Below are positions 1 through 34,961 of a DNA stretch of 34,961 nt, in pieces (the stretch's first letter is position 1; the number at the start of each line of letters is the position of its first letter). A program made the translations under genes and the position numbers. A model generated the notes under the pieces. That model was given only the letters and a program-made list of their open reading frames with translations. It was not told the DNA's origin and ran no database searches. The stretch comes from a virus. The stretch is taken from positions 1 through 34,961 of the IMG/VR virus record IMGVR_UViG_3300023180_000191; one strand, given 5' to 3'.

Positions 1-1317
1 CAGCGGACAGTCAAAGAAGCCGGTGACGGAACTACCACGGCTACGGTCCTTGCTGAAGCCCTTATCAAAGAAATATCTAAAGCTACAAGCAAAGGCGTTA
101 CTATACGTAGCGTAAAGGACGAGGTGAATGCAGCTTTACACGAAGTAATAGACTATTTAGAGGCTATCGCCGTAGAGGTTGATGGAGACATGCTTAAAGC
201 AGTTTCTTCTATCAGCTGTAACAACGACGAAGAGCTCGGAGCTATTATCGCTGAGGCCTACGAAAAGGTAGGTAAGAACGGTGTCGTACTTATGGAGACG
301 AGTGAAACTGAAGACACGTACGTAGACGTCGTTGATGGCGCGCAGATTGACTGCGGCCTTACATCCCCACATTTTGTTACAAATACGGAGAAGCACATTG
401 CAGAGCTGGACAACCCATATGTCTTAACTTGCATGTCTGAGATACCTAATATTCGCAAGATCCAAGGTATATTGGAGCATGTTATTAAGAGCAATCGGTC
501 ATTACTTATCGTCGCTCCAGTATCACAGCAAGTAAAGAGCGCTTTGCTTATGAACAAGGTTAAAGGCAATATCAAGGTCAATATTATCGACCCGCCTGGC
601 TTTGGTCCAACAAGAAAAGACGCTATAGAAGACTTAGGCGTACTCACTGGGGCGACGGTATATAACGAAGAGCTTGGAGATGATTTAGATCTCATGAATG
701 TAGACGGTCTTGGTGTCGTAGAGAAGGCGGTGACAGATGATAAGACCACTGTGCTTACATTAAACGACATGACTAACGAGCTTGAAGCTAGGCTTGATGA
801 GCTGCAGGGTCAAATAGCTAAAGAGAAAAATGGATATATCAAAAAGAAACTCGAGCAACGATTGGCTACTCTTTCTGGTAGCGTTGGCGTTATTCGCGTT
901 GGTGCTGGCTCCAAGGTTGCTTTAAAAGAGAAGAAGGATAGGGTGGAGGATGCTATATACGCAACTAAGGCGGCTTTAAAAGAAGGTATCGTACCAGGCG
1001 GCGGCGTGGCATTACTGAACGCATCGAAAGAGATGAATGTGCGATCAGTTGGAGCTGAGATTTTATCTTCGGCTATTAGAGCACCATTCTACACTATCAT
1101 GACTAATGCTGGCTACGATTTAGACGGGTTGCCTGATACTAAGGGTATAGGTGTGAACGTGGTAACTGGAGAAGAGGTTAATATGGTTAATGACGGGATT
1201 GTAGACCCAGTGCTTGTGACCAAGACGGCTCTTAAAAACGCAGTGAGCGTCGCTTTAACTATCATGTCAGCTGATTGTGTAATATCAAATGTAAGAGTAA
1301 ATGAAGGCGATAAATAA
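1..1317 (+). CDS. groEL: Phage chaperonin GroEL (Hsp60), 5' partial
   Basis: The frame is open from base 1, so the 5' end is outside the window; an internal ATG at 124 is not the true start. The ATP-binding signature GDGTTTATVLA starts at base 22, with the Asp matching E. coli D87 at 25-27. The nucleotide-pocket motif DRVEDA (Asp at 949, like D398), the PGGGVAL motif and the Asp of VDPVLVTK (1204, like D495) are all present, so ATPase residues look intact. In the apical domain the substrate/GroES-binding position Y199 is Leu and Y203 is His, while F204 is kept (GLTSPHF). The C-terminus ends soon after the ISNV segment, so the Gly-Gly-Met tail of bacterial GroEL is missing; the 438 visible residues match roughly E. 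coli position 79 onward. It should form a folding ring, probably for phage proteins, with the GroES encoded just downstream and overlapping it. Confidence 0.96.
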   Translation, partial: QRTVKEAGDGTTTATVLAEALIKEISKATSKGVTIRSVKDEVNAALHEVIDYLEAIAVEVDGDMLKAVSSISCNNDEELGAIIAEAYEKVGKNGVVLMETSETEDTYVDVVDGAQIDCGLTSPHFVTNTEKHIAELDNPYVLTCMSEIPNIRKIQGILEHVIKSNRSLLIVAPVSQQVKSALLMNKVKGNIKVNIIDPPGFGPTRKDAIEDLGVLTGATVYNEELGDDLDLMNVDGLGVVEKAVTDDKTTVLTLNDMTNELEARLDELQGQIAKEKNGYIKKKLEQRLATLSGSVGVIRVGAGSKVALKEKKDRVEDAIYATKAALKEGIVPGGGVALLNASKEMNVRSVGAEILSSAIRAPFYTIMTNAGYDLDGLPDTKGIGVNVVTGEEVNMVNDGIVDPVLVTKTALKNAVSVALTIMSADCVISNVRVNEGDK

Positions 1318-1558
1318 CTATGTTGTAATAGAGAAGATTAAGCAATCTGAAAAGAAAATCGCTGGTCTCATCGTTACGCAATCCACCGACACCGAGGCTG
1401 CAATATCTAGAGGTAGAATTATAAGCAGACCTGATGAGTTCGGTAAACTAGAAGAAGGCAGTGTCATTAGGTACTTAACTGGTGCCGGATGGGATATAAG
1501 CCACGAAGAAAAAGTTTATCGAGTAATTAGAGTGGGTGACATTGTAGTAATTGAATGA
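1301..1558 (+). CDS. groES: Phage co-chaperonin GroES
   Basis: This 85-residue protein has the GroES barrel pattern: an N-terminal VVIEKI strand, a mobile-loop-like segment with IAGLIVT matching the GGIVL of bacterial GroES, a central GRIISRP strand, and a closing VGDIVVIE-type strand. Bacterial GroES is about 95-97 residues, so it is slightly short. It starts 17 bases inside the end of groEL in another frame, which implies translational coupling. The gene order groEL-groES is the reverse of the usual bacterial groES-groEL operon. Its job would be to cap the phage GroEL ring, comparable in role to T4 gp31. Sequence similarity is low but the neighbour makes the call firm. Confidence 0.88.
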   Translation: MKAINNYVVIEKIKQSEKKIAGLIVTQSTDTEAAISRGRIISRPDEFGKLEEGSVIRYLTGAGWDISHEEKVYRVIRVGDIVVIE

Positions 1559-2865: not shown

Positions 2866-3079
2866 TATAATTCGTAAGATCACAATAGGTAAAGACTACA
2901 AGCATGACTCTATGCACTATGCCGTTGGGCAAGAAGTCTATGGTGGTCATAAAATTTGCGATATAATCGAGGAAGAAGATAAGTACAGCGTTTTTATTAA
3001 GAAAGACGACATGGTTATACCATGGAAGGACTTTAACAAAAACATGGCTATATCTATTGAATACAACTTAGAATACTAA
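2855..3079 (+). CDS. Small conserved Bacteroidota-phage protein
   Basis: A 74-residue, beta-rich protein. Recognisable features are the N-terminal RKITIGKDY, the MHYAVGQEVYGGHKI segment, and the C-terminal WKDFNKNMAISIEYN. I recall this pattern from hypothetical proteins of Bacteroidota phages, with no function assigned. GGAGG at 2844-2848 lies 6 bases before the ATG, giving good support for the start inside the end of the previous gene. It shares one base with the next start (TAATG). Confidence 0.7.
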   Translation: MKNNIIRKITIGKDYKHDSMHYAVGQEVYGGHKICDIIEEEDKYSVFIKKDDMVIPWKDFNKNMAISIEYNLEY

Positions 3080-3684
3080 TGAAGTCTCCTTACGATTACG
3101 TAATAAAACCTGTTGGGGATAGATATAACAATAAGGTCCAAGTCGATCCCGGCAAGGACCTTATTTTAAATACAGAAATATCTAATCATCAATACATCAA
3201 TAGGGTGGCTGAAATAGTTTCAGTTCCTATATTGAAGGCCACACATTTACGGGTCGGGCAGAAGGTGGTTGTCCATCATAACATCTTTAGAAGATGGTAC
3301 GACATCAAAGGCCGCGAAAGAAATTCAAGATCTTTCTTAGCAGAAGATAAATACATAGCTCATGAAGAGCAGGTGTATATGTACGAGGATGATGGTAAAT
3401 GGAAATGCATGCCGGGATTCACTTTCGTAAAACCGTTTAAATCCAAAGACGAACTAACCACGGATACTGAACAGCAACTTAAAGGCGTCGTAGTGTATAG
3501 CGACGGCGTTCATAAAATTGGTTCGGTTGTAGGCTTTAGACCAAATATGGAGTTTGAATTCGTACTAGGTGGCAATAGGCTATACAATATAGATAATAGA
3601 TTTATAACGATAGACTATGGACATAAAACAGACGAAGAGGAATATAATCCGCGCTGGGCAGAAAGCAGTGGACGAGTTAATTAA
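3079..3684 (+). CDS. Tandem GroES-like (co-chaperonin-like) protein
   Basis: This 201-residue protein is not a classical GroES but shows its barrel rhythm twice. Copy one (about 40-105) runs RVAEIVSVP, then HLRVGQKVVVHHNIF, a basic loop, and ends EEQVYMY. Copy two (about 135-180) runs LKGVVVYSD, then a gap, MEFEFVLGG, and ends in YNIDNRFITIDYG. In both, a GxV strand, a 'VGQ-VVVHH' strand and a final 'Y-I---I' strand match the order in the GroES encoded 1.5 kb upstream. I recall related proteins in flavobacterial phages, usually unnamed. The fold and any link to the phage GroEL are inference. It starts with a one-base overlap and overlaps the next gene by 68 bases. Confidence 0.68.
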   Translation: MKSPYDYVIKPVGDRYNNKVQVDPGKDLILNTEISNHQYINRVAEIVSVPILKATHLRVGQKVVVHHNIFRRWYDIKGRERNSRSFLAEDKYIAHEEQVYMYEDDGKWKCMPGFTFVKPFKSKDELTTDTEQQLKGVVVYSDGVHKIGSVVGFRPNMEFEFVLGGNRLYNIDNRFITIDYGHKTDEEEYNPRWAESSGRVN

Positions 3685-3892
3685 AGTGGCTGAAGAGGCT
3701 ATCGTTGATTCTGACGATGATATTTCAGCTGACAGACTCAAGAATGCTGCCGCCACGAAGAAGCTTGCTATCTTCGATGCGTTCGAGATCTTAGCTCGGA
3801 TACAGGAAGAAGAGGCTATGCTTAATGAAGAAGAAAGACCAAAAGAAGACAAACCTGTGTTTCGAGGGTTTGCCGAAGGTAGATCTAAATAA
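3617..3892 (+). CDS. Small helical protein, candidate small terminase
   Basis: A 91-residue acidic helical protein directly before the large terminase. The central part (KKLAIFDAFEILARIQEEEAML) and the end (KPVFRGFAEGRSK) match a small protein commonly found immediately upstream of TerL in Bacteroidota phages. The position is that of a terminase small subunit, which recognises phage DNA, but no helix-turn-helix is evident, so this stays a candidate. The ATG at 3617 gives a 68-base overlap with the previous gene; GTG at 3668 or 3686 would remove most of the overlap and is a real alternative. Its stop shares one base with the terL ATG. Confidence 0.66.
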   Translation: MDIKQTKRNIIRAGQKAVDELIKVAEEAIVDSDDDISADRLKNAAATKKLAIFDAFEILARIQEEEAMLNEEERPKEDKPVFRGFAEGRSK

Positions 3893-6117
3893 TGTATAAG
3901 CAAGACTTAGTAAAAGTTATAGAGCCTATTAGGCTTAATACTTTAAACAGGCTTAATAAGAGTAAGAGCTGGGCTTACGGATATAACAAAGAACACGACG
4001 TAGTGGTTATATCTAAAACCGGTCAAATAGGTGAGGTGCTAGATATACAAGGCTTACATATAGCCTTGCCTCTAGCGCCTAAAACCGTATACACCCGTAG
4101 CAAAAATAAAAAAGAGCAGAAGTGGGAGCAGTTCCCTGAAAATCCTGCATTTAAGAATATTAAAACAGTATTCGACTGGCAACAGTTTCCAGAAGAGTTT
4201 CAAGAAAGACATTACGCTTATATAGATGAAGAATTTAGACGTAGAGAAGAAGGGTTTTGGTTTGCCAATAATGGGACACCCACTTGGATACCTGGGTCTT
4301 ACTATATGTATCTCCAGTGGAGCAAAATTGACGTTGGCGCTCCTGACTTCCGCGAAGCGAACAGGTTGTTCTTTATTTTCTGGGAAGCGTGCAAAGCTGA
4401 TTCTCGGAGTTATGGTATGTGCTATCTAAAGAACAGACGATCTGGCTTCTCTTTTATGAGCTCAGCTGAAACCGTTAATTTAGCTACTCTTGCAAGTGAT
4501 TCTAGATTTGGTATCCTATCCAAGTCCGGAGGTGACGCTAAAAAGATGTTCACGGATAAGGTAGTGCCGATAAGTTTGAATTACCCGTTCTTTTTCAAGC
4601 CGATACAGGATGGTATGGACCGTCCTAAGTCGGAGCTTGCGTATCGTGTTCCAGCTAAAAAATTCACTCGAAAGAAGATGAAGGAAAAAGATGCTGTTGA
4701 CGACGTGCAGGGTCTTGACACTACTATCGACTGGAAAAATACTGGAGACAATAGTTATGATGGTGAAAAGCTAGCACTTCTTGTACACGATGAAAGTGGC
4801 AAGTGGGAGAAGCCAGACAACATCAAGAATAACTGGCGGGTAACTAAAACTTGTCTTAGACTTGGTAGCCGAATAGTCGGTAAGTGCATGATGGGTTCTA
4901 CGTCGAACGCTCTTGATAAGGGTGGTCAGAACTTTAAGGATATGTACTACGATTCTGACGTCACTAAGAGAAATAGAAACGGTCAGACGAAGTCTGGCCT
5001 TTACGCGTTATTCATACCCATGGAATGGAACTATGAAGGTTTTATCGATGAGTATGGGTATCCTGTTTTTGAAACGCCTGAAGTTCCTTGCAAAGGACCG
5101 CACGGCGACGATATAGATTATGGCGTCATTGATCACTGGGAAAATGAGGCAGAAGGCTTGAAAGACGACCAAGACGCTTTGAATGAATTTTACAGGCAGT
5201 TCCCTCGCACTGAGGAGCACGCCTTTAGAGACGAGACAAAAAATAGCTTGTTTAATCTTGTAAAGATTTACGAGCAGATTGATTATAACGAAGGAAATAG
5301 AAACTCTAATGTTCTTACCACTGGTAATTTCCAATGGATGAACGGCGTAAAGGACACAATGGTTATATTTAACCCTGACCCTAATGGCAGGTTTAAAGTT
5401 AGTTGGGTTCCAAACGTGCAGATGCAAAATAGAGTTATACTTAAGAATGGAGTGAGGTATCCTGGTAACGAACACGTGGGGGCATTTGGGTGCGACTCGT
5501 ACGATATATCTGGAACCGTAGATAATAGAGGATCAAAAGGTGCTTTGCACGGCTTAACCAAGTTTTCCATGGAAGACGCGCCTGCAAATACCTTCTTTTT
5601 AGAGTATATAGCAAGACCACAAACCGCTGAGATATTTTTTGAAGACGTGTTAATGGCGTTGGTATTTTATGGTATGCCATTGCTGGCTGAGAACAATAAA
5701 CCTAGACTTTTGTATTACTTGCGCAGACGAGGATATAGAGGCTTTAGTATGAATAGGCCAGACAAGGTGTGGAATAAGTTGTCAGTAGCCGAAAAAGAGG
5801 TTGGAGGTATACCAAACTCTAGCGAAGATATAAAACAGGCACACGCGGCCGCTATTGAAATGTATATTAATGACCACGTCGGTTTGACTGAAGATGGATA
5901 TGGTACTATGTATTTTAATGATACGTTAAACGATTGGGCAAGATTTAATATAAACCAAAGAACCAGGCACGACGCTTCTATTAGCTCAGGCTTAGCTATT
6001 ATGGCTTGCAATAGACAGTTATACGCCCCAAACCAGGATCGCGAAAGAGATCCGCTCAACTTAACCATATCTAAATATAATAACACTGGAACGACATCAA
6101 GATTAATAAAAGCATAA
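3892..6117 (+). CDS. terL: Terminase large subunit (TerL)
   Basis: This 741-residue protein is the DNA-packaging motor: an ATPase followed by an RNase-H-like nuclease. The Walker A region is atypical, LKNRRSGFSF with K180, R183, G185 and S187, lacking the classical GKS/T. Walker B is LLVHDES (D300, E301), and the coupling motif is MGSTSN shortly after. The nuclease acidic residues are in FGCDSYD (D535/D538), LLAENNK (E600) and RHDAS (D694). It cuts concatemeric genomes and threads DNA through the portal encoded next. The length is at the upper end of the family but usual for Bacteroidota phages. The ATG shares a base with the previous stop. Confidence 0.95.
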   Translation: MYKQDLVKVIEPIRLNTLNRLNKSKSWAYGYNKEHDVVVISKTGQIGEVLDIQGLHIALPLAPKTVYTRSKNKKEQKWEQFPENPAFKNIKTVFDWQQFPEEFQERHYAYIDEEFRRREEGFWFANNGTPTWIPGSYYMYLQWSKIDVGAPDFREANRLFFIFWEACKADSRSYGMCYLKNRRSGFSFMSSAETVNLATLASDSRFGILSKSGGDAKKMFTDKVVPISLNYPFFFKPIQDGMDRPKSELAYRVPAKKFTRKKMKEKDAVDDVQGLDTTIDWKNTGDNSYDGEKLALLVHDESGKWEKPDNIKNNWRVTKTCLRLGSRIVGKCMMGSTSNALDKGGQNFKDMYYDSDVTKRNRNGQTKSGLYALFIPMEWNYEGFIDEYGYPVFETPEVPCKGPHGDDIDYGVIDHWENEAEGLKDDQDALNEFYRQFPRTEEHAFRDETKNSLFNLVKIYEQIDYNEGNRNSNVLTTGNFQWMNGVKDTMVIFNPDPNGRFKVSWVPNVQMQNRVILKNGVRYPGNEHVGAFGCDSYDISGTVDNRGSKGALHGLTKFSMEDAPANTFFLEYIARPQTAEIFFEDVLMALVFYGMPLLAENNKPRLLYYLRRRGYRGFSMNRPDKVWNKLSVAEKEVGGIPNSSEDIKQAHAAAIEMYINDHVGLTEDGYGTMYFNDTLNDWARFNINQRTRHDASISSGLAIMACNRQLYAPNQDRERDPLNLTISKYNNTGTTSRLIKA

Positions 6118-9596: not shown

Positions 9597-11045
9597 ATGG
9601 CAATTGTAAACGGAGGAAATTTAAACTCCACCCCATCTGTCAATAAAGTTACGCTTAGCAGCAACTACATTGACTTTACAAGCGCGACCACGAAAGGTTG
9701 GGCTCAACAATACCTTCCTGACTTGATGGAAGAAGAAGCAGAAGTTTTTGGTAATCGTTCTATCTCTGGCTTCCTTGAGATGGTCGGTGCTGAAGAGGCT
9801 ATGACCGCCGACCAGGTAATTTGGTCTGAACAAGGTCGTTTGCATCTTTCTTACCAAGGCGATCAATCTACCAACACGGATAAAATTATCCTTACTGATG
9901 ACATTGATGGCAATAGCATTGATGCCAGCGGCGAAGCGGGCCACGGCGTGCGCGTTGGAGACACGGTCGTCGTTACGTCTAGCACTCACACCGTTAAGTG
10001 TTATGTTAGCGCAGTGACAAATACTCCTGGTACCGAAACAAGCATCACGGTTAAGCCTTACACGCATGCTACTTTAACAGCTGCTTTAGGTAACAGCAAC
10101 GCAGTGCCCTTAAATGTGTTTGTCTTCGGTTCTGAGTTTAAGAAAGGAACGCAAGGACGCACTGACGCTAATCAACCTGGGTTCAAGTCTTTGACCAACT
10201 CGCCTATCATTATGAAGGACTTGTACGAGATCTCTGGGTCTGATGCTTCTCAAATCGGTTGGGTTGAGGTTTCTGGTGAAGAAGGCCAAAATGGTTACTT
10301 GTGGTACTTGAAAGCCGCTGGTGATACTCGTGCTCGTTTCACTGACTACTGCGAAATGACCTTAGTTGAAGCTGAAAAAGCTGCCCCTAGTTCTGGCGCT
10401 ATAGGTGAGGGCATGAAAGGTACTGAAGGTTTGTTCGCCGCTATTGAAGACAGAGGTAATATATCATATGGTGGTCTCAGCCTCACTGAGTTTGACTCAA
10501 TCCTTAAGGAATTTGATAAGCAAGGCGCTATTGAAGAATACATGCTGTTCTTAAATAGAAATGAAGCTCTCGCTGTTGACGACATGCTCGCTGGCCTTCC
10601 CGGAAGCAACACAGGTGCTGGATCTGGTTACGGTGTGTTTGACAACGATCGCGATATGGCTTTAAACTTAGGTTTCACCGGTTTCCGTAGAGGTTCTTAC
10701 GATTTCTACAAGTCCGACTGGAAATACTTGAACGACAAATCTACTCGCGGCGGAATTCTTGACGTCACCGCGGCAAATGGTGGCGCTGATGGCCCTATAA
10801 GCGGAGTTATGGTTCCTGCTGGAACTTCCTCTGTGTATGACCAAAGCCTCGGTCGCAATTTGCGTCGTCCATTCTTGCACGTTCGTTACAGAGCTTCCCA
10901 GATGGATGATCGTCGCTTTAAGACTTGGACCACTGGCTCTGTGGGAGCATCTACGTCTGACCTCGACGCTATGGAAATGCATTTCTTGACTGAGCGTTGC
11001 TTGGTCGTGCAGGGTGCAAATAACTTTATGTTGTTGCAGAAGTAA
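9597..11045 (+). CDS. Major capsid protein
   Basis: This 482-residue protein follows the scaffold candidate. It starts with a helical segment (QYLPDLMEEEAEVFGNRSI), then ISGFLEMVGAEEAM, a feature I associate with HK97-fold capsid proteins of Bacteroidota phages, and continues as mixed alpha/beta with few Cys. Codons are more regular and GC slightly higher than in the neighbours, consistent with strong expression. The start is an ATG after an A-rich leader (AAAATTAAAACAAA) without SD. A strong terminator sits 12 bases after the stop, so the capsid gene ends a transcript, letting the head genes be expressed at a different level from those downstream. Confidence 0.88.
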   Translation: MAIVNGGNLNSTPSVNKVTLSSNYIDFTSATTKGWAQQYLPDLMEEEAEVFGNRSISGFLEMVGAEEAMTADQVIWSEQGRLHLSYQGDQSTNTDKIILTDDIDGNSIDASGEAGHGVRVGDTVVVTSSTHTVKCYVSAVTNTPGTETSITVKPYTHATLTAALGNSNAVPLNVFVFGSEFKKGTQGRTDANQPGFKSLTNSPIIMKDLYEISGSDASQIGWVEVSGEEGQNGYLWYLKAAGDTRARFTDYCEMTLVEAEKAAPSSGAIGEGMKGTEGLFAAIEDRGNISYGGLSLTEFDSILKEFDKQGAIEEYMLFLNRNEALAVDDMLAGLPGSNTGAGSGYGVFDNDRDMALNLGFTGFRRGSYDFYKSDWKYLNDKSTRGGILDVTAANGGADGPISGVMVPAGTSSVYDQSLGRNLRRPFLHVRYRASQMDDRRFKTWTTGSVGASTSDLDAMEMHFLTERCLVVQGANNFMLLQK

Positions 11046-26277: not shown

Positions 26278-29200
26278 ATGGAGGTAAAAGAGTATTTAGT
26301 AAACGGTAAGAAGTACAGAGTATCTTCTGACCGAGAGCAAGATTTTTTAGCAAAATTTCCAAACGCACAATTGTTGGGAAAGACAAATGGCTCAGCGGAG
26401 AGCGCGACCGAGGAGTCGAAACCAGCGCAACAACCATCGAAAACAAAGACAGAGGCGGAAAAAATAGAGCAAGATACGGCATTGTCTTCGGAGGATGGTT
26501 CTTTGGATTATGTGACTGCGGCTCTTGAGAAGCATAGACAATATAACGCTACTGAAGAGCAGAGAGCCGAAGCAAAAGCCAGGGCTGAAGAACGCGTTGC
26601 ATATTTAGATAGTGGCAACGCTACAGATATTAAAGCTATAAAGAAAGAAGTTAGAAGTGAAGAAGAAGAAGAAGGTTTCTTTGATAGCATGTGGAAAACT
26701 CTTGAAAGAGGTTTTAGCCTTACTCCAGAGAACGTAGCTCGAGATAAAGAAGCTAAAGAAAGATTAGATGCTAATTTTAAAGAAAAAGGTAAGTTAAGTA
26801 ACGAAGTATATGATTCCTTGCTGGCTGCTCATAATGAAGGATTACCATCTGATCAGCGTATTAGACAGTATGACGACGACGGTAGGATCACTGATAAGTA
26901 CTACGACTGGTTACAAACCATCGATGACGAAACAATACAGCGGACTAAAGTTGAGAAACTCGCTGGTAAATACGAAGACGAGTATTTCGACAAGAACGTC
27001 GAGGAAGAGATGGAGGATAGAGCTGCGTGGCACGGTGCCACTAGAAGCGAGTCCCAAAAACAAGAGGAAGAACTGGCCATGAACGCTATAAGCCAGTTAG
27101 ATGAAGAGAAAGCCAAGCTTATCAAAAGACAAAACGCGCTCGTAAATGGCATGAAAGGCCTGATGCTTAAGTACGACGCGCTTGATTTGTTAAATAGCAA
27201 GTTAGAAGATCTTAATGCACGTATGGAGAAGATAGTTTCTGTGCAGTACAAAGATCAAGAGTCATATAACGCTGCTAACAAAGAGCTTGATGCGCTTAAG
27301 TCTCAATTCACGAAGTTGACTGATGAGTATTTCGCCGGAGGTGGATTACCTCCAGATCAACTTAAAAAAGAGCGCGAATCATATCTTAGGGCGTTTGGTA
27401 GGGTTCAAGACGCTATGGAGGGTTTTAACGGTAAAGAACAAGATCTTAATAAGTATTTAGATGCTATGGGTCGTAATTACGGCTGGAGTGCTAACTTGGC
27501 TATGGGTCTTGCTAGTGGTGGATTGAAGCTTGGAGCTGGATTAGTTCAAGCTTATGAAATGGTTCAGGACGTACCAGCTGACTTATTTAGCGATATGGTC
27601 CCGATGCTTCCTGACTCGCTTAAGCCATACGCATCTTCTATAGAACTCGGTTTAGGTACTCTAGGTAAAGTAGCAACTGGAGATATATACGGTTCTATAG
27701 GACAGCTCGTCACTGGTGAAGACCCAACTAGTGAACTGGTTGATCAATTGTGGGCTTGGGATGCTTCCATTAGCAATAACATGGAGAAGCCAAGTGAATT
27801 TAGTGATATTGAAAACGCTGAAGACTTTGGCGAATGGTTCGGTAATCTTGTTACAACGCAAGCTGCTAACACTGCCGTGACGTTTGGTACTGGCGGGGCT
27901 TCTTTATTTATATTGGGCGCATCTGCGGCGGGCGGTAAGTTTCATGATATAGAGGAAGAAATGCGTGCATACGCTAATCTTCCGGAAGACCACCCAATGC
28001 ATAACTTTAAGTATACTAAGGCTCAGCAGTATTCGGCTGCCATATTGTCTGGTACATTTGAAGGTTTATCAGAGAAAGTAACTCTTGGTCAAGCTAAGTT
28101 CGTCAAGGACATGATGGCGTCTAGCGTGCCAATGCAGCGCGGCTTTAAGAATTTCTTACAAAGAAATTTTTTCACTAAAAGCGGACTGTACAACAACTTT
28201 TACGACCCTATTGAAGAAGGTTTTTCTGAAAGTTTAGCTGAGCTTGGTAATAATATAACGGATAGGTTTGTTATGGGCAAAGATGTTTCTTTGCTCCAAG
28301 GCATGGATGAAAGCTTTGTTAGTGGCTTGTTCATGAGTGGTGTTGTATATAAGTCTCCGCTTATAGGCAAAAACTTAGTTAAGGCTTTCCAATCCTCTGA
28401 CGTATCCGCTGAGATTGCTAGTATAAGCGAAGAACTGCAGCGTAAGACTGGAATACTGAACACGGTAGAGCTTTCTGAGGAAAATAGAAAAGGTATTGAG
28501 GCCGATATTGAAAGTCTCGTGGCTAGACATACAACGCTGGTCAATGAGACCATGAATGGCGTTCAAAACATGGACGCCGAGACTAGAAGTGCTCTCATCA
28601 ATATAGATGTTGAGTTAGCTAGACTTAGACAGTCAAATAAAGATATAGCCGCCGATCCGTCTCTTAGTCAAGAACAAGTACGAGAGCTGCAGCAAAAGAA
28701 CTCTGATCGTATGCAAAGCTTTAAGGCCGCTAAAGATCAGATTATAGCTAAGGCCAACAAGCAGGAAAACTTAGATCAAATAGAAAGATCTACCACTAAA
28801 GCTCAAAAAGATATAGAAAAAATTACTGGAAAGCCAGTCAAGTTTTTTAGAGCAAATAATAAGAATCTACAACAACAAGTAGATGATTTTAAAAAGACAG
28901 AACTAGAGTATATAGAAAACCAGTTAGCTACAAAAAGTGAGCAGCTTAAAAGCGCTGAGGGAGCAGACGCCGCTAAGTTGCGCAGAGAAATAAATCAATT
29001 AGAAAAAGCTAAAGAAGATACTAATTCATACTCACTAGACAATATCGGCGGGGCACAAGGATTTGTATCTGACGTTACTGGTAATATCTTCATAAATACT
29101 GAGCTTTCTGCTGAAACTGGTGGTATAAACGTCGTTAACCACGAGTTAATGCACTCAGTACTTAAGAAAACGCTAGCTGATAATCCTAGAGCTGCTCTCG

Positions 29201-32200
29201 CCATGGGTAAAGCCGTAGACGATTATCTAGATAAAATGGATCTAGACCAGGTTGAAGGAGCCACTATGAAGGCTAGGTTAAAAGCTTATAAAGATTCTCC
29301 TTCTTCCGTCCGAGCAGAAGAAAAGCTTACTTTGTTTTTAGACGCTATAGCTACAGGTGATATTAAGATAAAAAGAACAGGTAACCAAAAGCTTGGTGAC
29401 GCAATGCGTAGGGTTATGCAGTCGGCTGGACTGAAGGATATTCAATTTAACAATGCCGAAGATGTATTTAACTTTATAACTGATTTCCAAGCTTCTAGAA
29501 ACAGCATATTCTTTAACAAAGGAATAGCTAAAGTAGCCCAGGAAGGTGTCAAGGTAGGTAAAGAATTATTAGCCACAGTTGACATAAACGAGCTCATATC
29601 AGCTAAAGGTGAGATAGCCCAGACCGTGATGAAGTCGTCTGCGGCCGATGTTACAGACATGGTTAATGACCTTGGCGGTGCTATGGGCTGGACGAATGAA
29701 ACTTGGAAAGAAGTTGGTGGTAACTTCGCCCTGCAGACAATGCAAGATGAAGGTATGCTTGACCGTCTCATAGCATCTAAGCTTAAAGTGCCAATGAGTC
29801 CAGCTGACACCAGAGAATTTATATCTAAAGTATATGCTGAGCTCGCTAGCCATATCAAGAACTTCAATCCAGAAATAAATGACAGCTTATTTGGTTGGAT
29901 TAATTCTCAGATAGCTAATAAGGCTGGTAACGTTTATAACAGGGAATACAAGGTTACAGAAGAATCTAGAGCTGTTGATATTGACGCAACTACTAGCGAC
30001 GGGGCAGCATTAATCCAAATTGAGGCCGATGCAGACACAGACATGGACCGCATCGACTCGATAACTCTAGGCGACATAACTCAAAAGACAGAAGAGGCAA
30101 GAGACAGATATTCTAAACTACGTAGAGACATTGGTCTTGATGAGGCCATGATGCAAACCGTTAGAAATGCTGTTATAAAAACCTTTGGAACAAAACTTCC
30201 TAGCACTGATAATAAGCAGTTTAAATCAGAGCTTGAAAAAGCTTTTAGAAGAGAGCTGAAAAAGCCTATACAAGATTTAATGGGCACTAGAGAGAATTTT
30301 GAGTTCTTTTTGGTAGACAATTTCGAAGCTATATTCGAAGCATTGCCAGTATCAACGCTTGTTCAGATGGAGCGTAATCTTGAACCATCTAAAAGAATAT
30401 TTACGGAATCAAGACGTATAACAAAACCCACTGAAGTTGATCAATTAATCAGCGAAGGTAAGTTACCTAAAGACACAAACAGACTTTCCGGACCTCAACT
30501 TCATACTAAAAAAGCTACACCAACTTCAGAGCAGGTATTAGCCTTCTTTAGAGGCAAGGACATGGATAATATCCTTGGCTACAAAATAGGTGGATCAACG
30601 CTTGGTACTCGCAAAGACAAACTTGCCATGGAAATTGGCGTTGAGCTAGCGTTTGATGCCACGGCTGAGGTTATACAAAGCCCAGAAGTTAGAGAGAGAA
30701 GGAAAGGTATACTTGAGTTACAAGGTCTTGAAATGGCTGAAAATGATTTAGCTATGGTCAGCAAGGCCATTGACAGAGACCCGAGCATAAAGTTCAGCAA
30801 GGCAGCAACCGCTTCCTTGGCGTTTAGTAGATCTATCAACTCCGAGAACTTGAGCGTTTATTTCTCTAAACTAGACGAATTGCTCGAGGCTAGCAGAAAC
30901 GGTCTGAAGTTGAACAACGTTGGAGCTGTCAAGGCTAAGTTAAAAGAAATATATGGAGATGAGTTATCTTCTAAAGAAATACTTTCTACGGCGAACAAAA
31001 TTGCTAAGTGGGCAAAAGACTATGAGGCTATAGAAGACAAATCTCAAGAGTTTGCCACCAAAGAAATAGATGTACAGAACTACGTTAAGTTTATGTCCGA
31101 ACAAGACGTTCTAGATAAAGGAATATCTGATCTTCTTGGAGATGTTTTACCAGATGGATTTAAATCTATATCGGCACTGTATGGCAATAAAGAAAGAATA
31201 AATAGAGCTAGATCCGCTGCTAGAGGATTGTTTGAAGAACTAGAGCAAAAACTTGGTAGACAAAAAGCCGTGCAACTCATGGTTATGTTGAAGGGTCAAT
31301 ATGCTTCTTCAGCAAAAATAGGGGATGGAAAATTTACCGTTAAAGATGGAGTTGTAATAGAAGGCAAGGGTAAAGTAGGGACTAACAGAGGTCAAGTGTT
31401 TGTGTCTGCCAGTGATTATTACGGCACGTTAGGTATAACAGAGGCTGAAATCAAAGTCGCTAAAGACTCTAGAAAAAACTTTGCTGAAAAATCTTCTAAT
31501 GGCATTAAAGACCAAGACTACGACGGTAGACTTGAACAAGCTAAAGAAGCTAGAGAAGCTACCCAAGCTGTGACCGAATATTATCTTAATGGAATAAAAG
31601 AAGGTTTCCTTGACTACGGTGATTTAGCCATGCTGACAAAAATGTTTGGCTCAAACATGAACTCACCGATGAAAAGAGCAGCTAACCTAGCTTACATAGC
31701 CGTTGGTGTTGAAAACATGGATATTAAAAAGGCTGGTAAAGAAATGGAGTATGAACATATGGTTCCTACTAACGCCAAGATTTATCAGATGATAGACACT
31801 TATCTTCAAGCCGGCAAACTACCAAGCGATTTCTGGGACGATTACGAAGTTGCTATTATACCGAAAACAATGGATAAGGCTCTTATTGCTAATGGCCTTA
31901 GAGATGGTAGCGTGGAAGGTCCATTTAAGCTTGGAGATGAAAACTGGAGACGGTACTATAACAAACTGATGTTTGGCGAGAATGTTGTCGCTATAAGAAA
32001 TATAAAGACTGGAGAGATTATTGGTCAAGATTTCGTCGACGCTAACAACTTGCTGCAGACTGGTAAAATTAACGAAAAAGGCTCTGCCATAATAAATCAA
32101 GTCGCTCTTAAATTTTCTAAAGCCGCTGAAGTAACTCCTCGTGGGATGTCGACTTTTGACTTTGATGAAACCCTCATTATACATGGCAAGAATTTTATTA

Positions 32201-34961
32201 CTGCAACCAAAGGCGATCAGACAATAAAAATTAGCTCTGATCAATGGCCGGTGAAAGGACCGGCTCTTGCTGAAGAAGGATGGGACTTTGACTTTTCTGA
32301 TTTTGCACAAGTGCGTGGCGGAAAAGAAGGTCCTTTCTTGGACAAGATGAGGGAGCGTATACGGCAGTTTGGCGCTAAAGATGTGTTTATACTTACAGCA
32401 AGGCAGCAAGAGGCTGCAATGCCTATACACGAATGGTTAAAATCTAAAGGCATAGATATTCCGTTAGAGAACATAACTGGACTTGGTGATAGTCGTGGAG
32501 AGGCTAAGGCTGAGTGGATGTTAGAGAAGTTTAATGAAGGTTACAACGATATGTACTTTGTTGACGATGCTTTCTCTAACGTCAAGGCTGTTCAAACCGT
32601 GTTCGACCAGTTTGATATTAAAGGAAAGACTGTTCAGGCGTTTATTAAGTTTAGCAAGACGGCAGAGTCTGATTTTAGCAACATACTTGAGCAGGTAAAA
32701 GGCATGCCAGCGGCTAAGCAAATATCCGCTGCGCAAGCTTCAATAATAGGTAGAAGCAAAGGAAGATTCAGATTCTTCGTACCTCCGTCCGCTGAAGACT
32801 TCAAAGGTTTGCTTTACAATTTCCTTGGTAAAGGCAAGGAAGGTGATGCGCAAATGAAGTTCTTCAAGGAAAAACTCCTTGATCCGTTCTCTACCGGTAT
32901 AAGGCAGTTAAATACATACCGCCAGAGAATGTCTGAGGATTACGCTATGCTTAAAAAAGCAGGGCGTGACGTCGTGAAAAGATTCAAGAAGCCTATTGGT
33001 GTTGGAAATTACACTACCGAGCACGCTATAAGGGTTTGGTTATGGCAGGCTAATGGCATTAAAATACCAGGCATAAGTGAGTCTGAAGTGAAAGCTCTGG
33101 TTGCTAAGGTGAACATGGACGAAGACCTCGTGAACTTTGCTATGGTGCTCTCTAATATATCTAGGCAAAAAGAAGGATATGTAAAGCCAAGTGAGTACTG
33201 GACCGCGGGAAGCATTGGGCAAGATCTTGTTGATGCAACTAAAGGAGCGAGAGCAACATTCTTGGCGGAATGGAAGGCCAATAAAGACCTAATATTCTCA
33301 GAGAATAACATGAATAAAATCGAAGCTATATACGGAACTAGATTCCGTGAAGCTCTCGAGGATATTCTTTATCGCATGGAGAACGGTACGAACCGACCTA
33401 AGGGTAACGATAGAGAGGTCAATAGCTTCTTAAACTGGATCAACGGCTCTGTTGGAACGGTCATGTTCTTCAACACTAGATCTGCGTTACTTCAAACACT
33501 GTCGACTGTAAACTTTATAAACTTCGCTGATAACAATATATTTGCTGCGGCTAAGGCGTTTGCTAACCAAAAACAGTTTTGGGCTGATTTTGCGATGCTA
33601 TACAACTCTGACATGCTTAAGCAAAGAAGAGCCGGCACGAAGATTGACGTCAGCGCTGCCGAACTTTCTGAAGCTGCAGCACGTGGTGGAGGCAAGGTTG
33701 AGGCAGTTATATCAAAGCTTCTCGACATTGGTTTTACGCCTACGCAAATCGCGGATAGCTTTGCTATAGCGCTTGGCGGTTCTACCTACTATAGAAACAG
33801 GGTCAATAAATACCTTAAAGAAGGTTTGAGCAAAGCTGAGGCAGAAGCTAAAGCTTTTGAGGACTTCCAAGAAATAGCTGAGGAAACGCAGCAGTCGTCA
33901 AGACCTGACCTTATCTCTAAGCAGCAAGCCGGAACACTTGGTCGTTTGATTCTCGCTTGGCAGAATACGCCTATGCAGATGACACGTTTGACAAAGAAAG
34001 CTTTGTCTGATATTATAAACGGCAGAGGCGATCTTAAGTCTAATATATCTAGAGTCGTTTACTACGGCGTTATGCAGAACATTTTGTTTGGTGCACTGCA
34101 GTCTGGTCTCATGTTCGCGTTGTTTGGTGATGACGACGATGAAGAGGACGAAAAGCGCAAGGCTAATAGAGTTGCCAACGGTGTGCTTGATTCACTGTTG
34201 CGAGGTACTGGTATATATGGTGCAGCAGCAGCAACTCTTAAAAACGTTATACTCAAGTGGGCTGAAGAACACGAAAAAGGTTTCGGCAAGCAAGACTGGA
34301 GTAAGGTTGCGCAGGAGGTTATCAACTTATCACCACCTATGGGTAGCAAGTTACGTAAGGTCATGAACGCTGTTAAGACTTACGAGTACAACGAAGAGAT
34401 GATAGACAAGATGAACTGGAGCCCTAATAACCCAGCTTGGAACGTATTTGGTAATGTTGTCGAAGCCACTGCTAATATACCTTTAGCTAGATTAATGAAC
34501 AAGGCATCAAACATAGAAGTTGCTATGCAAGAAGGTCTTGAGCCTTGGCAAAGAGCAGCGTTAATACTTGGCTGGAGTAAGTGGGATGTTGGAGTTGAAG
34601 ATGCAGAGCTGCAAGAAGCCAGACAAGAAGTCAGAGAGGAAAGAGAAGCTGCTTCAGAAGAACGTAGACAAGAACGCGCAGAAGAGCGTAGACAAGAAAG
34701 AGAAAGAGAGAACGCCGAGCAAGTCGAAGAAAATGAGCGAGACCTAGAGGAAGATAGAGATAGAGGTGTCCCAGAAGAAGAGTTAAGATGCGCTCACGTC
34801 AAGGACAATGGCGAGCGTTGCGGCAAAACACCACTTGAAGGTAAATCTTTCTGTACTATTCACGAGCGAGTGCCGCAAGGCAACGAAGAGAAGCAATGCT
34901 CTCACATAAAAGCTGACGGAAAACGTTGCAAGGTTAAGACTAAAAATGAGTCTGGATTGTG
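26278..34961 (+). CDS. Giant polyvalent inner-virion protein, 3' partial
   Basis: The frame stays open from ATG 26278 to the window end: over 2,894 residues. The start is a conserved short motif (VNGKKYRV then FLAKFPNAQLLG) followed by acidic linker. Around 520-660 are small-residue hydrophobic and 'EEGFSESLAELGNNI' stretches typical of large polyvalent phage proteins. Residues 955-959 are HELMH, a zinc metallopeptidase site, with E1014/E1015 as third-ligand candidates. Residues 1826-1830 are EHMVP. Residues 1958-2100 are a HAD phosphatase: D1961/D1963/T1965, T2040, K2077, D2096/D2097. Near 2538-2567 are QQSSRPD and NTPMQ, then a TM segment about 2594-2617. An Arg/Glu-rich coiled coil precedes CCCH repeats at 2838-2895. 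It is probably ejected with the DNA. Confidence 0.88.
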   Translation, partial: MEVKEYLVNGKKYRVSSDREQDFLAKFPNAQLLGKTNGSAESATEESKPAQQPSKTKTEAEKIEQDTALSSEDGSLDYVTAALEKHRQYNATEEQRAEAKARAEERVAYLDSGNATDIKAIKKEVRSEEEEEGFFDSMWKTLERGFSLTPENVARDKEAKERLDANFKEKGKLSNEVYDSLLAAHNEGLPSDQRIRQYDDDGRITDKYYDWLQTIDDETIQRTKVEKLAGKYEDEYFDKNVEEEMEDRAAWHGATRSESQKQEEELAMNAISQLDEEKAKLIKRQNALVNGMKGLMLKYDALDLLNSKLEDLNARMEKIVSVQYKDQESYNAANKELDALKSQFTKLTDEYFAGGGLPPDQLKKERESYLRAFGRVQDAMEGFNGKEQDLNKYLDAMGRNYGWSANLAMGLASGGLKLGAGLVQAYEMVQDVPADLFSDMVPMLPDSLKPYASSIELGLGTLGKVATGDIYGSIGQLVTGEDPTSELVDQLWAWDASISNNMEKPSEFSDIENAEDFGEWFGNLVTTQAANTAVTFGTGGASLFILGASAAGGKFHDIEEEMRAYANLPEDHPMHNFKYTKAQQYSAAILSGTFEGLSEKVTLGQAKFVKDMMASSVPMQRGFKNFLQRNFFTKSGLYNNFYDPIEEGFSESLAELGNNITDRFVMGKDVSLLQGMDESFVSGLFMSGVVYKSPLIGKNLVKAFQSSDVSAEIASISEELQRKTGILNTVELSEENRKGIEADIESLVARHTTLVNETMNGVQNMDAETRSALINIDVELARLRQSNKDIAADPSLSQEQVRELQQKNSDRMQSFKAAKDQIIAKANKQENLDQIERSTTKAQKDIEKITGKPVKFFRANNKNLQQQVDDFKKTELEYIENQLATKSEQLKSAEGADAAKLRREINQLEKAKEDTNSYSLDNIGGAQGFVSDVTGNIFINTELSAETGGINVVNHELMHSVLKKTLADNPRAALAMGKAVDDYLDKMDLDQVEGATMKARLKAYKDSPSSVRAEEKLTLFLDAIATGDIKIKRTGNQKLGDAMRRVMQSAGLKDIQFNNAEDVFNFITDFQASRNSIFFNKGIAKVAQEGVKVGKELLATVDINELISAKGEIAQTVMKSSAADVTDMVNDLGGAMGWTNETWKEVGGNFALQTMQDEGMLDRLIASKLKVPMSPADTREFISKVYAELASHIKNFNPEINDSLFGWINSQIANKAGNVYNREYKVTEESRAVDIDATTSDGAALIQIEADADTDMDRIDSITLGDITQKTEEARDRYSKLRRDIGLDEAMMQTVRNAVIKTFGTKLPSTDNKQFKSELEKAFRRELKKPIQDLMGTRENFEFFLVDNFEAIFEALPVSTLVQMERNLEPSKRIFTESRRITKPTEVDQLISEGKLPKDTNRLSGPQLHTKKATPTSEQVLAFFRGKDMDNILGYKIGGSTLGTRKDKLAMEIGVELAFDATAEVIQSPEVRERRKGILELQGLEMAENDLAMVSKAIDRDPSIKFSKAATASLAFSRSINSENLSVYFSKLDELLEASRNGLKLNNVGAVKAKLKEIYGDELSSKEILSTANKIAKWAKDYEAIEDKSQEFATKEIDVQNYVKFMSEQDVLDKGISDLLGDVLPDGFKSISALYGNKERINRARSAARGLFEELEQKLGRQKAVQLMVMLKGQYASSAKIGDGKFTVKDGVVIEGKGKVGTNRGQVFVSASDYYGTLGITEAEIKVAKDSRKNFAEKSSNGIKDQDYDGRLEQAKEAREATQAVTEYYLNGIKEGFLDYGDLAMLTKMFGSNMNSPMKRAANLAYIAVGVENMDIKKAGKEMEYEHMVPTNAKIYQMIDTYLQAGKLPSDFWDDYEVAIIPKTMDKALIANGLRDGSVEGPFKLGDENWRRYYNKLMFGENVVAIRNIKTGEIIGQDFVDANNLLQTGKINEKGSAIINQVALKFSKAAEVTPRGMSTFDFDETLIIHGKNFITATKGDQTIKISSDQWPVKGPALAEEGWDFDFSDFAQVRGGKEGPFLDKMRERIRQFGAKDVFILTARQQEAAMPIHEWLKSKGIDIPLENITGLGDSRGEAKAEWMLEKFNEGYNDMYFVDDAFSNVKAVQTVFDQFDIKGKTVQAFIKFSKTAESDFSNILEQVKGMPAAKQISAAQASIIGRSKGRFRFFVPPSAEDFKGLLYNFLGKGKEGDAQMKFFKEKLLDPFSTGIRQLNTYRQRMSEDYAMLKKAGRDVVKRFKKPIGVGNYTTEHAIRVWLWQANGIKIPGISESEVKALVAKVNMDEDLVNFAMVLSNISRQKEGYVKPSEYWTAGSIGQDLVDATKGARATFLAEWKANKDLIFSENNMNKIEAIYGTRFREALEDILYRMENGTNRPKGNDREVNSFLNWINGSVGTVMFFNTRSALLQTLSTVNFINFADNNIFAAAKAFANQKQFWADFAMLYNSDMLKQRRAGTKIDVSAAELSEAAARGGGKVEAVISKLLDIGFTPTQIADSFAIALGGSTYYRNRVNKYLKEGLSKAEAEAKAFEDFQEIAEETQQSSRPDLISKQQAGTLGRLILAWQNTPMQMTRLTKKALSDIINGRGDLKSNISRVVYYGVMQNILFGALQSGLMFALFGDDDDEEDEKRKANRVANGVLDSLLRGTGIYGAAAATLKNVILKWAEEHEKGFGKQDWSKVAQEVINLSPPMGSKLRKVMNAVKTYEYNEEMIDKMNWSPNNPAWNVFGNVVEATANIPLARLMNKASNIEVAMQEGLEPWQRAALILGWSKWDVGVEDAELQEARQEVREEREAASEERRQERAEERRQERERENAEQVEENERDLEEDRDRGVPEEELRCAHVKDNGERCGKTPLEGKSFCTIHERVPQGNEEKQCSHIKADGKRCKVKTKNESGL
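32152..32583 (+). other. HAD-type phosphatase domain within the giant protein
   Basis: All four HAD motifs are in order: STFDFDETL (nucleophile D1961, acid D1963, T1965), VFILTAR (T2040), a Lys in RGEAKAEWM (K2077), and YFVDDAF (D2096/D2097). Spacing between motifs I and IV (about 135 residues) fits a small HAD fold without a large cap. A phosphatase or nucleotidase activity is likely; the substrate is not. Confidence 0.85.
34789..34961 (+). repeat. Tandem zinc-binding CCCH repeats, second one cut
   Basis: Repeat 1 has C2838, C2848, C2859 and H2862. Repeat 2 has C2874 and C2884 at the same spacing, and the window ends inside codon 2895 (TG-), exactly where the third Cys is expected. Period is 36 residues. 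The C-x(9)-C-x(10)-C-x2-H layout matches a small zinc-binding motif found in phage proteins. Confidence 0.75.

Follow-up and report, generated by a model that had tools for sequence, protein, structure and literature searches.

GroEL homologues were previously reported in 'group 2' marine Bacteroidetes phages, a set of 36 environmental genomes related to Cellulophaga phage phi38:1 (Nishimura 2017; PMC5332604), and Bartlau and colleagues listed 'chaperonin cpn10' among the core proteins of the Pervagoviridae (PMC8776804). The GroEL of phi38:1 has also been detected as a protein, with methylation marks, in infected cells (PMC13288928). Here, we analysed the virus record IMGVR_UViG_3300023180_000191 over its entire 34,961 bases (hereafter, the window), which opens with overlapping groEL and groES genes and carries, near its terminase gene, a further gene predicted to encode two GroES folds in tandem. 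A sequence-only reading of this DNA had described complete chaperonin systems as uncommon in phages, a statement that does not hold for the phi38:1-related group, where groEL is the rule (PMC5332604, PMC8776804). GroEL and a core cpn10 are already known in that group (Pervagoviridae); what is new is the rewired apical groove and the presence of two kinds of lid gene. Our analysis shows that a large clade of phages related to phi38:1 and Elemovirus has vertically inherited, and maintained by selection, the genes of a group I chaperonin and its co-chaperonin, in a fixed order and with overlapping reading frames. We consider it fairly probable that these phages build their own GroEL-GroES folding cage, with the tandem protein as an alternative or mixed lid.

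A scan of IMG/VR for GroEL relatives confirmed at least 598 of them, and the best 80 loci, 65-85% identical, were retained; several of these relatives lie on contigs of 60-68 kb. For the bacterial comparison, 79 groE loci were taken from GTDB genomes. The window groEL gene (1..1317; all features described here are on the plus strand) is a frame that is open from the first base and at its 5' end, encoding the C-terminal 438 residues of a group I chaperonin, and its first residue corresponds to about residue 78 of Escherichia coli GroEL. The protein belongs to the Cpn60/TCP-1 family (PF00118, E=5e-43, 147.9 bits for a cut-off of 34.3), matches phrog_5725 (E=1e-105) and, in phmmer searches, solved GroEL structures (E down to 3e-92), and is 85% identical to the full-length product of one relative, L003. 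About 78 N-terminal residues are missing because the record ends there, with no visible break, and complete groEL genes of approximately 513-526 codons are present in 76 related viral contigs. We therefore rejected the possibility of a broken groEL, and the N-terminal part, on whose integrity the sequence-only reading had made its case depend, is intact in these 76 relatives. The P-loop region KEAGDGTTTA (7..36) aligns with that of E. coli GroEL and includes D87 and T91; D398, G415 and D495 (E. coli numbering) are also present in the window protein. The remaining ATP-site residues, T30, G32 and D52, fall within the missing segment, and all eight are kept in 76/76 full-length relatives. Between the window and L003, the nonsynonymous and synonymous divergences (dN 0.11, dS 1.9) indicate purifying selection on GroEL.

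The groES gene (1301..1558) encodes a single-domain co-chaperonin of 85 amino acids, which passes the PF00166 cut-off narrowly (22.4 bits versus 21.1) and matches phrog_3188 (E=1e-10). This weak single-sequence score reflects divergence: the L003 orthologue reaches 46.0 bits, and a profile built from 57 clade members matches solved Cpn20 chains (1.7e-13) and Cpn10 chains (5e-9). Profile comparison with bacterial GroES gives E=6e-14. The AlphaFold model (predicted local distance difference test score, pLDDT, 86) superposes on Thermus Cpn10 with a Z of 11.5 and a root-mean-square deviation of 1.6 over 75 residues. The mobile-loop motif KKIAGLIVTQ (1352..1381; KSAGGIVLTG in E. coli) falls in a flexible stretch modelled with low confidence and retains the hydrophobic triplet (GLIVT versus GIVLT). 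The roof segment comprises 11 residues, whereas E. coli has 20 and most of the sampled bacteria (mostly Flavobacteriia) have 15. As most of the sampled bacterial GroES are already shortened, we toned down the idea that loss of the roof hairpin is a phage speciality of the gp31 type. Both lid genes have diverged fast in the sublineage of the window phage. The window GroES is the fastest-evolving among 75 compared: it is only 40% identical to that of L003 despite a GroEL identity of 85%, a level at which other pairs average 78%, and the tandem genes of the same two phages are 53% identical, against 74%.

The end of groEL and the start of groES overlap by 17 bases (1301..1317) in open frames, as the sequence-only reading had noted. 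The order groEL-groES recurs in 80/80 IMG/VR loci, 72 of them with a 14-base and eight with a 17-base overlap, and the constant adjacency of groES indicates that the partner of this GroEL is a separate co-chaperonin rather than a built-in lid. Bacterial loci uniformly show the reverse order, groES-groEL (79/79), as had also been anticipated. The groEL-first order is found again in Elemovirus and the uncultured phage MW202828, whereas in Callevirus, which belongs to the same broader group, groES comes first and is separated from groEL by one gene, so that gene order alone says little. A gene for a 146-amino-acid protein of unknown function (phrog_17028, 1555-1995) starts within the groES stop codon (ATGA); it is conserved in 77 loci and also occurs in Callevirus and MW202828.

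Sequence comparison shows the phage GroEL to be an old phage lineage inherited vertically and not a recent copy from a host, in line with the sequence-only reading. Its best bacterial counterpart is only about 43% identical, so the close identity to a host GroEL that would have spoken against that reading is absent. In a maximum-likelihood tree of 62 rows, it groups with L003 within a phage clade that has 100/100 support and a stem length of 1.47 changes per site, and all 28 bacterial rows fall outside this clade, in a separate starred set that also includes some other phages. Long branches keep the tree from placing the window GroEL relative to those of Elemovirus and Callevirus. Flavobacteriia dominate the nearest-ranked bacterial matches, as one would expect if a host groE operon had been captured recently and later rearranged. 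However, the low identity, the separation of the phage clade from all sampled bacteria and the many clade-specific GroEL residues argue against such a capture; together with the gene order in bacteria, they led us to reject it, and we give it almost no credence. One 'bacterial' contig does fall within the phage clade (L169, 8.3 kb, from an alphaproteobacterial metagenome-assembled genome); considering its length and the phage order of its groEL-groES genes (3725-5555), it is probably a misbinned phage contig. Viral GroELs are reportedly common and old in viruses, and their gene order is said to follow GroEL phylogeny.

The apical groove (358..552, window residues ~120-184) reads Y199L, Y203H, F204F, L234Q, L237L, L259K, V263L and V264M, a pattern conserved in the clade (77-81 members) and absent from the 79 bacterial GroELs. 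The replacement of Y199 by Leu and of Y203 by His, correctly read from the window alone, proves to be clade-wide: both changes are nearly fixed in the phages, while 79/79 bacteria have Tyr at both sites. F204 is unchanged in the window protein and Met replaces V264 in the clade. The weightier changes are L234Q and L259K/R, which matter more than those at the two Tyr sites. Position 234 is Gln in 77/77 clade GroELs where the bacterial Leu site is almost always hydrophobic, and position 259, again almost always hydrophobic in bacteria, is Lys or Arg in 77/77.

Changes extend to salt bridges and ring contacts. R197 has become Cys or Ser and E386 has become Lys, so that the known R197-E386 salt bridge is gone; D83-K327, also a salt-bridge pair, appears to be charge-reversed. 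The inter-ring segment 422-441 comprises 12-13 residues, versus 18-21 in bacteria, and the segment 455-478 comprises 18-21, versus 24-25. These contact segments are shortened in 77/77 clade members, and A109, R452 and V464 are not conserved, so that the canonical inter-ring contacts are missing. Such contacts are typical of group I chaperonins without defining them, and mitochondrial Hsp60 can be a single ring. We infer that the phage GroEL may also work in a single-ring state. The GGM tail, another typical but not defining trait, is present in 0/81 clade members and in 76/79 bacteria, in agreement with its loss as first read from the window. Altogether, the altered groove, the modified ring segments and the lost tail support the prediction of a chaperonin with reshaped client, lid and ring contacts, and its clients may be altered, as the sequence-only reading had suggested.

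As another option, the same reading had suggested that GroEL and GroES form a dedicated pair. This view is incomplete, since a second co-chaperonin-like gene, overlooked at the time, lies at 3079..3684, two genes before the terminase gene. It encodes 201 amino acids and is assigned to phrog_13932 ('co-chaperonin GroES') in 68/68 members. It is present in each of the 76 loci extending as far as the terminase, and every locus that carries it and continues for 7 kb or more upstream also has groEL/groES. Its AlphaFold model (pLDDT 83) consists of two GroES-like barrels, whose best fold matches are chloroplast Cpn20-type chains spanning both domains: a Chlamydomonas Cpn20-type chain with Foldseek (7ekq_R, E=1.5e-4) and 7ekq_Q with VIA-align (Z 10.3 over 155 residues). 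The modelled domain 1 (3079..3393, residues 1-105) resembles Mycobacterium tuberculosis Cpn10 (Z 7.2) and T4 gp31 (Z 6.7) and has a flexible loop carrying LILN (3160-3171). Domain 2 (3397..3621, residues 107-181) resembles GroES (Z 7-8); its mobile loop is shortened and devoid of an IVL-like triplet. With a GroEL-binding-type loop in one domain only, we classify the protein as Cpn20-like in architecture, and not as a Cpn20.

Sequence support for this fold is modest, yet independent of the structural model. Each half can be aligned over its full length to a joint GroES profile (P=0.0014 for the first and 0.0001 for the second, each a single pre-chosen comparison), and the second half of the Callevirus homologue matches PF00166 with 28.0 bits for a cut-off of 21.1. 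That homologue was the only one to match, as a Pfam search of the 68 clade members returned no Cpn10 hit. Searching the PDB by sequence, with either one tandem protein or a profile of them, returned nothing useful; comparing the tandem and phage GroES profiles directly gave a weak result (probability 1%, P=0.04), and a profile comparison of the two halves with one another showed no match. In the literature searched, which excluded most subscription papers, we found no account of the second cpn10 as a tandem-domain protein. The clade proteins end in a strongly conserved EEYNPSWA tail (last 12-17 codons), absent in Elemovirus and MW202828, which is possibly a docking peptide. The end of the tandem gene is overlapped by a gene for 91 amino acids (3617-3892) that immediately precedes the terminase gene and is conserved in 74 loci; by its position only, it is a candidate for the small terminase subunit.

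These data suggest how the system could operate. Unfolded phage proteins would be captured by rings of the phage GroEL in apical grooves whose chemistry is altered, with two extra polar or charged positions, and ATP would drive the folding cycle via the intact catalytic residues. The phage GroES, with its mobile-loop motif kept and its roof segment shortened, would cap the chamber. The tandem protein, with one GroEL-binding-type loop for two domains, would probably act on this GroEL too, as an alternative lid or in a mixed one. Likely clients would be large virion proteins, such as the probable major capsid protein of 52 kDa (9597..11045; phrog_13704; sharing 37-38% identity with that of Callevirus), for which T4 gp23 and gp31 offer a precedent of a capsid-folding client (PMC3012670, PMC6318259). 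In its fullest form, the proposal would be a two-lid machine, in which a single-domain GroES encoded with GroEL and a tandem Cpn20-like lid encoded among the packaging genes alternate or mix on a GroEL whose groove is rewired and whose ring contacts are altered or absent, and late virion proteins fold in a chamber unlike that of the host. We put forward this extended version only tentatively.

Whether the tandem protein belongs to the chaperonin at all can be weighed from co-variation. Across 71 phages, protein distances of the tandem protein and GroEL remain correlated when the terminase distance is held constant (partial r 0.55), and the value for GroES and GroEL is equal. The partial r between the tandem protein and the terminase, given GroEL, is only 0.10. 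Six control genes from the same region give 0.17-0.49 with GroEL, and the tandem-GroEL signal stays at 0.45-0.64 after adding each control. As co-variation with GroEL exceeds that with the terminase, the comparison speaks for GroEL, rather than the terminase, as its partner. The tandem protein is thus probably a co-chaperonin, as predicted from co-occurrence and co-variation only. One can also imagine that it takes part in packaging or head assembly, with the GroES fold put to a new use. Its adjacency to the terminase gene is kept in the window clade, Elemovirus, MW202828 and Callevirus, the YNPSWA end of its conserved C-terminal tail has no GroES counterpart, and its second domain is without a mobile loop. 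In contrast, the partial correlations run the other way and domain 1 retains its flexible LILN loop; we regard the packaging role as possible but clearly the less probable of the two. The highest control value, 0.49, belongs to a fast-evolving gene for 89 amino acids (2596-2865), which could be linked to a client or simply evolve fast.

Two further scenarios keep the co-chaperonins but change their role. The loss of the canonical inter-ring contacts could indicate that the phage GroEL works for the most part without enclosing its clients, preventing their aggregation as a chaperonin of single-ring or switching type, with accessory co-chaperonins, for which the chaperonin of phage EL is a precedent (PMC7185714). 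Unlike in phage EL, however, a GroES with a kept mobile loop lies directly downstream of groEL in every locus and co-varies with it, which makes this scenario unlikely. In the other, suggested by T4 gp31 (PMC6318259) and by the GroES-like mobile loop of the window protein, the co-chaperonins would act on the host GroEL while the phage GroEL has a separate holding role. Tight linkage, the overlap of the reading frames and co-variation with the phage GroEL all speak against it, and we find it more improbable still. The reading that we prefer, a phage-encoded cage with its own lids, also has several points against it. Fenton-type mutations at the L234 and L259 sites abolish lid or client binding in E. 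coli, and L234Q together with L259K could have weakened lid or client binding here. The N-terminus of the window's own GroEL lies beyond the record, and domain 2 of the tandem protein has no obvious mobile loop. Co-variation is a correlation that may partly reflect evolutionary rate, as the fast control gene illustrates. The capsid protein as client is a guess by analogy with T4 gp23/gp31, and the proposed GroEL rings, lid binding and folding are deduced from genes and single-chain models.

The large terminase subunit (3892..6117; phrog_6681, E=1.9e-174) places the window phage beside MW202828, Elemovirus and Callevirus, the identities being 64% (MW202828), 46% (Elemovirus) and 38% (phi38:1/Callevirus); the corresponding capsid identities are 47%, 40% and 38%. 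The window phage is collinear with this group. Its portal, capsid, cpn10 and structural homologues in phi38:1/Calle are collinear and have 23-38% identity, and the window phage is a possible member of the Pervagoviridae. The host of the window phage is probably of the Bacteroidota type: 22 of 25 window gene starts have no Shine-Dalgarno motif and their leaders are A/T-rich, which fits such hosts. The three other starts have a Shine-Dalgarno-like motif, and several leaders are of the TTTTATTTTATT type, as in Bacteroidota phages. At the far end of the window, an open frame exceeding 2,894 codons (26278-34959) continues past the last base of the record. It has almost no matches to protein families, and only a short piece of it resembles a structural protein of phi38:1.

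For most phage chaperonins of solved structure, no lid is known. The clade described here provides hundreds of natural sets of GroEL, GroES and putative tandem lid, in which groove and lid have diverged together. It thereby offers a test of which groove positions define the choice of lid and client, and bears on the question of why a phage of approximately 60 kb should bear the cost of encoding GroEL. Should the tandem protein prove to be a lid, a Cpn20-like architecture would exist outside plastids and apicoplasts, and the problem of odd versus even lid symmetry would become open to study in a phage.

Compared with known systems, the window phage resembles Callevirus/phi38:1 in its terminase (38%), portal (35%) and capsid (37-38%), and in carrying a phage groEL, a groES and a tandem-type cpn10 beside the terminase gene. 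It differs from them in gene order, in a GroEL that is only 35% identical, and in its groove, as the phi38:1-type groove keeps Y199 and L259. Elemovirus, whose members infect Flavobacterium, and MW202828 share with it the groEL-groES order with short overlaps and the tandem-type cpn10 beside the terminase gene, but their GroELs are 34-37% identical and do not have L234Q or L259K; the 422-441 segment is full-length in MW202828 and shortened in Elemovirus, as in the window clade. T4 gp31 is similar as a phage co-chaperonin with a mobile loop and without a full roof loop (PMC6318259), and matches in fold; T4, however, uses the host GroEL, whereas the window phage encodes its own. Likewise, gp146 of Pseudomonas phage EL is a divergent phage chaperonin with an intact ATPase, from which the window phage differs by its adjacent groES. 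Finally, chloroplast Cpn20 has two tandem GroES-fold domains in one chain and is the best structural match of the modelled tandem protein, whose second domain differs in being without the usual mobile loop, and which shows no close sequence relation to Cpn20 despite the common architecture.
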